64,000 bases of DNA from Candidatus Peribacteria bacterium RIFCSPHIGHO2_02_FULL_49_16 (lineage in GTDB: Bacteria > Patescibacteriota > Gracilibacteria > Peribacterales > Peribacteraceae), in NCBI GenBank assembly GCA_001788955.1, contig MFXT01000026.1, forward strand, positions 3,760 through 67,759, written 5' to 3'. The translations under genes and the position numbers were made by a program. Under the pieces are notes generated by a model. That model was not told where the DNA came from. It worked only from the letters and a program-made list of their open reading frames with translations, and did no database searches. This document shows positions 13,017 to 16,973 of this stretch, piece after piece. How positions within the stretch are numbered: position 1 is the stretch's first letter; each line of letters starts with the position of its first letter.

Positions 13017-13054
13017 ACTGCAAATGATAAAAAATGTATAATGAAAAGATTTTT

Positions 13055-13477
13055 ATGACACAGAAAACGCACATTCAATCACAGCAACAAGAGAATGACA
13101 AACGCTCTCAAAGCGGGGGAAAAAAGGGAAAATTCGGCTATTTTGCTATCGCCTACTTTTTCTCCGTTGCCGCTTTCTACGATGCTGTTGGTCTTGTACT
13201 CCTCTTCTTTGGACTGGATGACTTTTGGATTGGCGATACGCTGTACGGATTCCTCTTTACGGCGCCGTTCCTCTTTTATTGTCATCACAAGCGCATCCGC
13301 GCTGCAAACTGGGCTGTCTTCGGTTTACTCTTTGAACTCGTTCCCTATCTTTCCATTCTTCTTTTGCAGTCTGTGTATTTCCTCTTCAAGGTATGGACAA
13401 CGAATGCGAAATCCGCATCACTTGTACAAATAGCGGGAAAAATGAAAAAACCTGCTCCTGTCTTAAAAGGGCAATAA
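13055..13477 (+). CDS. Hypothetical membrane protein
   Basis: ORF with hydrophobic segments. Confidence 0.6.
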   Translation: MTQKTHIQSQQQENDKRSQSGGKKGKFGYFAIAYFFSVAAFYDAVGLVLLFFGLDDFWIGDTLYGFLFTAPFLFYCHHKRIRAANWAVFGLLFELVPYLSILLLQSVYFLFKVWTTNAKSASLVQIAGKMKKPAPVLKGQ

Positions 13478-14578
13478 TGGAAGAAGCATCGCATACGCGT
13501 TCGGATTAATCAGACTCAAAATCACTGCGGCAAAAATCAACATCAATATCCCCACAATCGAATAAAGAATATGTTGCATCGCCTGTTGACGCAGTCCCGG
13601 GTTTCCTCCGGAGAGCATCAATTCATATCCTGCGATAATTGTTCGTACAACAGCAACACCCACGCCCATTGCAATAAGCCATGGCCAGATGGCATCAAGA
13701 TAATCGATCAAGACCTGAACTCCGGTGTTTTTACTTACGGTCCTGGCTCCACCAAAAGGCCGAAGTAAGACAATATCCGTGGAAGGAAGACCGCTCGCAG
13801 GTGCCGACGGCAGCAATGCAGCAGCGCAAAACCCCTCAATACAAAATGGAGCATCAGAGCAACAATTACCGTCAAAACCGCATGCAGTACCTTTCTGACG
13901 ACAGCATGTGCCATTATTGGCACCTGAACAAACCAATACTAGGTGTGGTTCCACACCATCTTGCTCTCCACAACAACGCTTGTCCGATTTCTGTGGATCG
14001 CACGACTTACCCAGTTCGATGCAAGCAGGAATTTCACTGCATGTATTTGTCTTTTCGTTACATTCGCCGGAACAACATTCACCACTGTTCGTACAACCTA
14101 CACCATTCCGCTTACAACAAAGACCTGCCTTTGGAGCGGGGGGGGAAGGACGGCTGCCATCCGAACAAGCGACTTCTTCCGATACACAACATTTCGTTTG
14201 TCCACCACACTGTATGGGCGGATTTTCTATAAGCTGTTTTCCTATAAATAGACATTCTTGACACAATCCTGTCAACAAATTGCATGATAAACCCGTACAG
14301 CAATCCGAATCCCTACCGCAACCGCCCTTGGCTCTGCAGCAGATCTGTTTCTCTTTATTTTTACTATCACATTCTAAACCTTTTTGACACGTTCCTTGAT
14401 TTTTTCCCTCACAGGGGTCACCAAAAGTTCCACCCTCCACAGGAGCAACTCCTCCCTGTCCACCTTGACCATCTGGTGCTCTTTGTTGTGCCATAACAGA
14501 AGAGAATCCTGCAAAATACGCCATGCAGAGAACAAGAGAGACAATGACCGTAGAAAGGTGTTTTTGCGTTTTCAGCAT
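13463..14578 (-). CDS. Secreted Cys-rich (knottin-like repeats) protein with C-terminal VirB2/TrbC-like pilin domain
   Basis: Signal peptide; repeated CCxxxGxxCxxxxxCCxxxxC blocks; C-terminal two-TM domain AGYELMLSGGNPGLRQQAMQHILYSIVGILMLIFAAVILSLI. Confidence 0.7.
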   Translation of the reverse strand: MLKTQKHLSTVIVSLVLCMAYFAGFSSVMAQQRAPDGQGGQGGVAPVEGGTFGDPCEGKNQGTCQKGLECDSKNKEKQICCRAKGGCGRDSDCCTGLSCNLLTGLCQECLFIGKQLIENPPIQCGGQTKCCVSEEVACSDGSRPSPPAPKAGLCCKRNGVGCTNSGECCSGECNEKTNTCSEIPACIELGKSCDPQKSDKRCCGEQDGVEPHLVLVCSGANNGTCCRQKGTACGFDGNCCSDAPFCIEGFCAAALLPSAPASGLPSTDIVLLRPFGGARTVSKNTGVQVLIDYLDAIWPWLIAMGVGVAVVRTIIAGYELMLSGGNPGLRQQAMQHILYSIVGILMLIFAAVILSLINPNAYAMLLPLLPF

Positions 14579-14657
14579 ACTGCTTACAGCGTAACTTTTT
14601 TTGCGAAAGGAACCCAATTTTCCAGGAACATTGCATTGCCAAAACACCCAATAAAGT

Positions 14658-14665
14658 AGTATAAT
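14658..14665. promoter_or_regulatory. Overlapping divergent -10 elements (AGTATAAT) between pilin-like and VirB6-like genes
   Basis: + TATAAT 14660-14665, 7 nt before ATG 14673; - strand TATACT 14658-14663. Confidence 0.5.
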
Positions 14666-14672
14666 TTATAGA

Positions 14673-16973
14673 ATGCCTAAAAATACAAACAACACTCATC
14701 CTGCATATACAAAAACATGCGTCATTATAACAATATTGGTATGTTTCTTTCTCCTACCGGAGCACGTGCATGCATCATATATCGGTGAGGCTGCGGTCAA
14801 TGCTGTTGCTTTGGCATTCAAAGAGATATTTAATGGTCTACTAAAACCTCTCCTCATCATACTCATCGGAACTGGATCTCTTGTGGGAAGTCTTCTGGTA
14901 TGGATCATATATCACGTGTCCATCTTCGTTCTCACACTTTTTGTGTTATTGGCAATTCAACTGGTCGAATCTACGCTTGTACCGACTGTCGGTTCTCTTG
15001 CCTACGATTATTTCTATTCACCAGTTATCCAAAATGGAATTTATGATGGACTCTGGGTTCCGTCGCGTGATCTCGTTCATGTATTTCTCGCCCTGATACT
15101 TCTCATCGGAGCGATCATGGTCATTATACAAGCAAACAAGGAATTCCTGCAGCAGCATGCGACAAAATTCATCCTCGCAATCATCGCCGTGAACTTCTCA
15201 TGGTTTATTCCCGGCGTCATTCTCGATATCTCTAACGTCGCGACAAAAACTGTTGCAGGTCTTGCTTCTCTGCCTCCATGCCAAAACTGTAGAGTGATAA
15301 CAAAAGTCTCTTCTCTACCCACACCGGAGTCGGAAGAAGTCGCATTTGAGACATATATCACAGAAGAGCTTGTAGGACCGAATAGCAGCGATGGAAGACT
15401 GATTGCAGGAGGACTGACAGCATATTACGGACAACTCCTAAAACAAGGGGCAAACATTATTCCGATGAATATCGAAAAAGTACTAGTAGAGCCTTTTAAG
15501 AACATTCTAAGTGCATTAAAAACAGGCGATCTTAATATAGTTATTGCAGGAAACGTCAGGTCTATTCCTGGTCCCATCTTGATTATCACAATGGCAATAC
15601 TCTATGTTTTTGCCCTTTTGGCTCTTGCAGTCGTATTTTTAATACGCATACCGATCCTCTGGCTCACTATGGGATTCATGCCTTTTATCATCTTGGGATA
15701 TCTGGTGCCTACTCTCAAACCCTACACATCAAAAATAGGAACGGCATTTCTTGGAGCAGCATTCATACCTGTCTTGGCAAGCGTTCCATTGACAGCAGGC
15801 TCTATCGTTTTGCGTCTCATACGAGTACCGATACAGCCAGGTATACAAGGTCTGATGCTCTTCTTCATCCCTATTACACTTTCCATTGGTATTGTTTGGC
15901 TTGGCATTTTCGCCGCTCTCCAGAGTTTTGACTTTGCGGGAGGAGCTGTTACAAAAACAACTGGTTGGTTTAAGGGTGTCGGCCAAGGCAGCGCACTATC
16001 CTTCGGTGCATGGGCAGCTCAACGTGCTCCTGGTACCCAATTTGCCATCCCTCTCCTAAAAAAATTCCCCGGCGCAGCTAAATTTGCACAGTTACAGCCA
16101 CTAGCGAAATTGCGAGAACGGATGGGTGTAAAGACTCCAGAAGAGCGCAAGAAGCGGGCACAAGAAGTTGCTCAAAAAATAGCGGGATTACAGAACCAAG
16201 AGTTGAATCCGGTACAAAAACAGCAATTAACAGAATTACAGAAGGAACAGAGAAATCTGGAATTAGGAAAAGCAACTTCAAAGAGTGAAGCTATATATAA
16301 AGGCGTGGCAGCAACACGTGGAGCAATCGGTAAAGCCTGGCAACAATTCAATACACCGACATCAACAGGAAAATTCATTCTTGGTGGCATCGGTTTGGCA
16401 GCAAGAGCACCCGAAGCACTCCAAAGGGCACCAGGACGAGTGGTGGCAGCTACTCTGCGCGGAGAAAATATGTCCGTCGGTGAAGCAGTTCGTGAGGGAA
16501 TTGGCGCGCATGTCAGCAATCAGGATACGACAAGAATGCATGAAGCATTACAGAAGAATCCACAGAAACTCGAAGACATTAAACAAAAAATTATAGCTCT
16601 AGGAAACACCGCTGACAAAGATAAAAACCAAATACTGGATGGGATTATCGGTGCTCTCAATGACATGGGCACGGGAATCTCTGTCACTCGTGATACACTC
16701 CCCAATTTGCTTGGTAAAATCCAAAAAATTTCTCTCAAAATTCCTGGGGAAAAAATGTTTGACAACACAACGGCTGAAGAACTCGAAGGTGATTTGGATC
16801 TCCACGTGCGAAAAGCGCGCGAGGCGACAGCTGCACCTCCCCCAGCTGCACCTGCATCTGCAGCCTCCTCTAAATCAGAGGCTCCATATAATTATTCTCC
16901 CAGTATTACTCCACCCCCACCTGAATCAGAAGAAAAAATTCCACTTTCAGATAGTGAGGGATCAAGCCCGTGA
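14673..16973 (+). CDS. Polytopic membrane protein, VirB6/TrbL-like, with long hydrophilic C-terminus
   Basis: Signal sequence, multiple TM segments, Pro/Ala/Ser-rich tail; divergent from a VirB2-like pilin gene. Confidence 0.6.
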   Translation: MPKNTNNTHPAYTKTCVIITILVCFFLLPEHVHASYIGEAAVNAVALAFKEIFNGLLKPLLIILIGTGSLVGSLLVWIIYHVSIFVLTLFVLLAIQLVESTLVPTVGSLAYDYFYSPVIQNGIYDGLWVPSRDLVHVFLALILLIGAIMVIIQANKEFLQQHATKFILAIIAVNFSWFIPGVILDISNVATKTVAGLASLPPCQNCRVITKVSSLPTPESEEVAFETYITEELVGPNSSDGRLIAGGLTAYYGQLLKQGANIIPMNIEKVLVEPFKNILSALKTGDLNIVIAGNVRSIPGPILIITMAILYVFALLALAVVFLIRIPILWLTMGFMPFIILGYLVPTLKPYTSKIGTAFLGAAFIPVLASVPLTAGSIVLRLIRVPIQPGIQGLMLFFIPITLSIGIVWLGIFAALQSFDFAGGAVTKTTGWFKGVGQGSALSFGAWAAQRAPGTQFAIPLLKKFPGAAKFAQLQPLAKLRERMGVKTPEERKKRAQEVAQKIAGLQNQELNPVQKQQLTELQKEQRNLELGKATSKSEAIYKGVAATRGAIGKAWQQFNTPTSTGKFILGGIGLAARAPEALQRAPGRVVAATLRGENMSVGEAVREGIGAHVSNQDTTRMHEALQKNPQKLEDIKQKIIALGNTADKDKNQILDGIIGALNDMGTGISVTRDTLPNLLGKIQKISLKIPGEKMFDNTTAEELEGDLDLHVRKAREATAAPPPAAPASAASSKSEAPYNYSPSITPPPPESEEKIPLSDSEGSSP

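Follow-up and report, generated by a model that had tools for sequence, protein, structure and literature searches.

We found that a gene of a tiny uncultured Peregrinibacteria bacterium encodes a subunit of the type IV secretion pilin class in which a chain of cysteine-rich modules stands between the signal peptide and the pilin hairpin. This architecture is well supported. On balance we favour the reading that the protein is a type IV secretion system (T4SS) pilin carrying a chain of disulfide knots on the exterior of the cell, where it probably serves to contact a partner cell.

The gene was located at 13463..14578 of the window, that is, of the whole stretch of 64,000 nucleotides analysed here (G000:C26). 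It is read on the minus strand (14578..13463) from an ATG start, and its translation gives 371 amino acids, a secreted pilin with a 34-Cys ectodomain, while the plus strand contains stops throughout the same region. The coordinates given in the earlier note were correct, and the translation established the strand. An alternative GTG start at 14647 is possible and would place 23 residues ahead of the signal peptide. The signal peptide itself, also proposed before, was recognised by inspection of the sequence at residues 1-30 (14489..14578, minus strand): it is hydrophobic, ends in SVMA-QQ with cleavage expected after SVMA, and was modelled by AlphaFold2 as a helix over residues 3-30. It is followed by a Gly/Gln-rich linker and the 34-Cys region, which a second, short linker and a small beta element separate from the helical hairpin.

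The hairpin is a pilin domain (13508..13720, minus strand) built of two long helices, residues 287-322 and 327-357, and a short loop. Over residues 298-357 it passed the curated cut-off of Pfam PF18895 (T4SS_pilin; 30.8 vs 26.6 bits). AlphaFold2, run with relatives in the alignment, modelled the hairpin with confidence (pLDDT about 85-93). The PF04956 (TrbC/VirB2) profile did not reach its cut-off on the window protein (10.8 vs 27.9 bits). The two-TM domain that had been described as VirB2/TrbC-like is thus a pilin of PF18895, and not a literal member of PF04956; a check of the C-terminal domain for a match to an unrelated family led to PF18895 instead. A conjugation pilus of the archaeal Aeropyrum was ranked second by Foldseek for the hairpin (TMt 0.70, but E 1.8). 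In the orientation expected of VirB2-type pilins, cleavage of the signal peptide would leave the ectodomain on the outer side and the loop with Arg (NPGLRQQ) on the inner side.

We observed 14-15 PF18895 pilin domains in the genome, and a VirB4-type ATPase on the contig of the pilin, about 65 kb from the pilin gene. On another contig two ORFs of ~320 aa (G000:C21:2115-3660) carry three PF18895-like stretches each, and so have tandem pilin domains in one protein. We infer that the window pilin is assembled into a pilus. A filament in which every subunit bore so large an ectodomain could be difficult to assemble on steric grounds. Because the genome holds about 14 other pilin domains, the window pilin could be a minor or tip subunit, and packing would then be eased. 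Dsb-type oxidases, which the earlier note had advised looking for, are represented in the genome by two DsbA-like oxidoreductases with CPxC motifs (CPAC and CPFC); a search of the genome for a VKOR that would re-oxidise DsbA found none.

The divergent neighbour of the pilin gene (14673..16973, plus strand) encodes a polytopic membrane protein of 766 aa, which is VirB6-like by topology and linkage only; a Pfam search gave no family for it and left VirB6 identity unconfirmed. Homologues were present in 47 of 59 relatives, and one also adjoins the pilin in G001, the one other genome of the genus examined. A promoter-like site, TTGCCA-18-TATAAT (14636..14665, plus strand), has 11 of 12 matches in a region that is not enriched over shuffles. 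It ends 7 bases 5' of the ATG of the 766-aa gene, as for a leaderless transcript (region 14636-14672). Convergent with the pilin gene is a gene for a small membrane protein (13034..13477, plus strand) with no Pfam family; by eye, a similar gene lies beside the G001 pilin.

The cysteine-packed region, reported before at roughly 13820-14415, was located at 14413..13826 (C56-C251), and the three modules quoted there were all found letter for letter in the translation. It contains 34 Cys, an even number, in 198 residues. We parsed it best as one four-Cys piece and five six-Cys modules, in which tight modules (1, 3, 5) alternate with loose ones (2, 4). The tight modules have the spacing C-x5-6-C-x5-CC-x3-5-C-x4-6-C. 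All pieces lie on the minus strand and were delimited by Cys spacing. Module 0 (C56-C80; 14339..14413) has four Cys. Module 1 (C81-C106; 14261..14338; CRAKGGCGRDSDCCTGLSCNLLTGLC) is ICK-like by strict spacing, by a match to PF07740 below cut-off (E 0.0053) and by an AlphaFold2 model of the module. The loosely spaced module 2 (C109-C154; 14117..14254) had no Pfam match. The ICK-like module 3 (C155-C180; 14039..14116; CKRNGVGCTNSGECCSGECNEKTNTC) matched PF08116 (E 0.0068) and PF08091 (E 0.011), the loosely spaced module 4 (C186-C225; 13904..14023) matched PF08396 (E 0.1) and the ICK-like module 5 (C226-C251; 13826..13903; CRQKGTACGFDGNCCSDAPFCIEGFC) matched PF17557 (E 0.02), in each case below cut-off.

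We compared the spacing with 20,000 composition-preserving shuffles. The strict pattern C-x5-6-C-x5-CC-x3-4-C-x5-6-C had 2 non-overlapping matches (shuffle mean 0.02; fraction reaching 2 = 5e-5), and on this basis chance composition was set aside as its source. A looser ICK pattern had 3 matches (shuffle mean 1.1; fraction 0.018).

Cysteine-knot modules are best known from animal and plant peptides. Their ICK framework, six Cys in the order C-C-CC-C-C with characteristic loop lengths, was found in modules 1, 3 and 5, and loosely in modules 2 and 4. Taken singly, each tight module, and module 4 as well, matched Pfam families of ICK toxins below cut-off; the best of these, PF07740, scored 17.8 vs the 21 bits of the curated cut-off. 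The three tight modules reversed as a control gave no Pfam match. A profile of the three, searched against all PDB sequences, had 15 matches up to E 1 (best E 0.011), nearly all of which bear names of venom or conotoxin peptides of ICK type. The AlphaFold2 model of module 1 was knottin-like at moderate confidence (pLDDT 73), and its Foldseek list contained hardly anything but ICK knottins, squash inhibitors among them, every one with E of at least 0.93. In the full-length model the Cys region had pLDDT below 50. Statistically, none of the ICK matches is firm, whether by sequence (best E in Pfam 0.0053, in PDB 0.011) or by fold (best E in Foldseek 0.93). Spacing and predicted fold nevertheless favour an ICK-like framework in the modules, as a likeness and not as proof of homology to the animal or plant peptides. 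The presumed knot connectivity is 1-4/2-5/3-6. The modules had been described as cystine-knot/Dickkopf-type: the first part agrees with the spacing, the sub-cut-off family matches and the module model, and a Dickkopf-type identity is not supported, since PF04706 (Dickkopf_N) had no match at E up to 10 in the Cys region or the tight modules.

We regard it as unlikely that the region is disulfide-rich but of another kind (e.g. another small disulfide fold) or metal-binding, in which case the pilin reading would stand. Modules 0, 2 and 4 do not have the strict ICK spacing, and every ICK score lies under the curated cut-off. However, the three tight modules converge on ICK families, as does an independent module in the genome G372 (PF17557, E 0.00075, below cut-off), and DsbA-like proteins are encoded in the window's genome.

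Further, we followed the pilin class through 74 genomes of the family (Peregrinibacteria-type); most have one strong match per genome, followed by a drop to paralogues. G001 shares the neighbourhood of the window gene: an rplS-like gene, an HTH protein, the small membrane protein and the 766-aa homologue. Its syntenic pilin is 61-66% identical (66% over residues 275-363) and has no Cys array. A two-row pilin alignment scanned against the collection matched solely the G001 contig PFDS01000055 (Candidatus Peregrinibacteria bacterium CG10_big_fil_rev_8_21_14_0_10_49_16). A maximum likelihood tree was built from the hairpin alone (99 columns, one row per genome, 65 genomes). Most N-termini of the class have no linker or a short one, and 45 of the 65 pilins on the tree are without any ectodomain. 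Ten have a small Cys module (about 4 to 8 Cys) just ahead of the hairpin, and the G029 pilin has a separate 4-Cys segment. Five, from genera g10 and g17 (L031, L027, L149, L157, L162), carry 160-216 residues of Ser/Phe (FSS/QFSS)/Gly repeats at the N-terminus. Two g3 genomes (G003, G209; L011, L094, L095) have an ectodomain of ~550 residues and 24 Cys with a Pro/Ser linker before the hairpin. The 34-Cys array occurs in the window gene alone among the 65. Four long pilins (L093, L096, L016, L013) were rejected as upstream open frames without a real fusion.

The ectodomain states need five changes on the tree, the least possible. The window pilin and that of G001 are sister to the clade with small Cys modules, all 10 members of which have the module (bootstrap 98, SH-aLRT 92). 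From the N-terminal states and their placement on the tree we conclude that the hairpin is retained and the ectodomain varies from one lineage to the next. It is likely that a small disulfide module was expanded in the window lineage, or lost in G001.

These relatives also bear on a second alternative, in which the ectodomain serves structurally, as spacer or armour: it would lend stiffness or protection to the pilus or the cell surface and have no specific binding partner. Pilins of the same class carry low-complexity Ser/Phe repeats of spacer-like appearance at the same place, and a comparison of the six pieces shows no conservation of the module loops. We nevertheless think this rather improbable: 45 of 65 pilins manage without an ectodomain, so protection is not generally needed, and spending as many as 34 Cys on the region points to a fold that offers a surface.

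The earlier note had called for a search for the same fusion in related genomes. The exact array turned up in none of the genomes searched, and fusions of the same kind were found. The whole protein had no match in the GTDB and IMG/VR collections, phages or plasmids, and a module profile searched over 380 genomes of the phylum found the window's own array in no other genome. Among 353 genomes of the class the sole foreign match to the array (G221) lay out of frame inside a glycosyltransferase-like gene and was attributed to chance; a DNA pattern for the CC spacing was swamped by out-of-frame repeats in the same 353 genomes. The module profile detected two further pilin-Cys fusions in other Patescibacteria families, and both are independent of that in the window. 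In G372 (L176; L204:8663-9301) a 213-aa PF18895 pilin has a C-terminal CLPNGTSCNVHAECCSGRCDPQTRLC module (the PF17557 match given above, obtained with the piece). Upstream of it lie prgI (PF12666), virB4 (PF19044, PF03135) and a gene whose protein matches TrbL below threshold. In G538 the Cys modules form part of the N-terminal ectodomain of a 471-aa PF18895 pilin, which belongs to a pilin array with several members that also have extra outer domains.

Two genes further on in G372 (L204:10664-11671; G372:C2) a PF18895 pilin is fused to Amidase_2 (N-acetylmuramoyl-L-alanine amidase, PF01510), a cell-wall enzyme. The PF18895-like pilin array of G538 (L205:5509-10554; G538:C11) includes a 264-aa member with a repeat that looks peptidoglycan-binding by eye. 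ICK-like stretches were also seen in two very Cys-rich proteins of surface type: one in G432 (L175; 75 Cys in 830 aa) and one with DUF4215 repeats in G012 (L202; 59 Cys in 631 aa).

ICK folds widely serve as protease and channel inhibitors. The window protein might accordingly be a tethered or released inhibitor or antagonist, with the hairpin as carrier and with modules directed against a neighbour, in which they would inhibit a protease, a channel or some function of the envelope. The module matches are indeed to ICK peptides of inhibitor type, and the amidase on another G372 pilin is an enzyme aimed at the cell wall. Yet the matches track Cys spacing rather than target-binding residues and we saw no release signal between array and pilin, and we give this reading a low probability.

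A functionless recent Cys-rich insertion, or a fusion made by assembly error, is very improbable: the array is in one genome only and the same-genus G001 pilin has none, but the reading frame is intact across 371 codons, the GC of the array (0.456) is near that of the pilin part (0.466) and of the window (0.471), the module repeats are too strongly diverged at the DNA level for a recent duplication, and in the sister clade this position is taken by mini-Cys modules. By its GC the array does not look foreign, and by its divergence it is not a recent duplication; with the intact frame, these findings led us to set misassembly aside.

In the reading that we prefer, display of the knot chain on a T4SS pilin, the Sec signal peptide would be removed outside the cytoplasmic membrane, the ectodomain would fold outside with disulfides made by the DsbA-like oxidoreductases, and the two-helix hairpin would remain in the membrane or enter the T4SS filament. 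Domain order and the known families are the grounds for these steps. The 34 Cys would knit the ectodomain into six disulfide-knotted modules in a row, one small and five larger, of which at least three would be ICK-like, and the array would project outward as a protease-resistant stalk or as a ligand contacting the surface of a partner cell. We infer that the array may contact a partner cell from the lifestyle of Patescibacteria, the published importance of their T4SS (PMC12102498) and the lineage-specific swapping of the outer part. Against the preferred reading, the pilin gene is not beside virB4 in this genome.

The literature that we searched describes no pilin with a knottin-like array, and a phrase search of the open literature for bacterial knottins, a weak test, returned no paper. 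ICK-like folds on bacterial pili appear to be unreported so far. For the question of how Patescibacteria recognise and hold their hosts, a pilin with a lineage-specific, outward ectodomain is a concrete candidate contact element, testable as a purified protein. A chain of knot modules in place of the outward-facing end of a pilin may let the bacterium grip a partner cell. PMC12102498 reports of one cultured Patescibacteria member that its epibiotic growth requires the genes of the T4SS.

The outer domains seen on these pilins are the cystine-knot array, the Ser repeats and the large Cys-rich domains, and in other families the amidase, the peptidoglycan-binding-like and the ICK-like modules. 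As a tentative generalisation, Patescibacteria might use one T4SS pilin class to display outer domains that are swapped from lineage to lineage, so that the filament itself recognises or works on the partner, and these bacterial pilins might have gained ICK-like folds repeatedly, by new origin or by recruitment.

Compared with known systems, modules 1, 3 and 5 share their spacing with ICK peptides (PF07740, PF08116, PF17557 and others), a small beta fold is predicted, and the database matches are biased towards these peptides. Unlike those peptides, the window protein is bacterial, scores below cut-off and has tandem modules fused to a pilin, tight ones alternating with looser ones. The G372 pilin resembles it in combining PF18895 with an ICK-like module, and lies near prgI and virB4; it differs in belonging to another Patescibacteria family and in having one clear module, at the C-terminus, instead of an array. 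The hairpin aligns over residues 289-357 with NF045849, the Mbov_0395/ICE_MMCAP2_0565 pilin-like conjugal transfer protein, but below cut-off (28.4 vs 40 bits) and with the ectodomain unmatched. T4SS pilins of Patescibacteria and their tandem arrays are already published; the passages of PMC12102498 on VirB2 and pilins report pilin arrays without ectodomain fusions. The PF18895 systems of Patescibacteria share with this genome VirB4 and many paralogous pilins, and their PF18895/VirB2-like pilins share with the window protein the signal peptide, the two-helix hairpin and a score over cut-off. The window pilin differs from them in its ectodomain of 198 residues and 34 Cys between signal peptide and hairpin.
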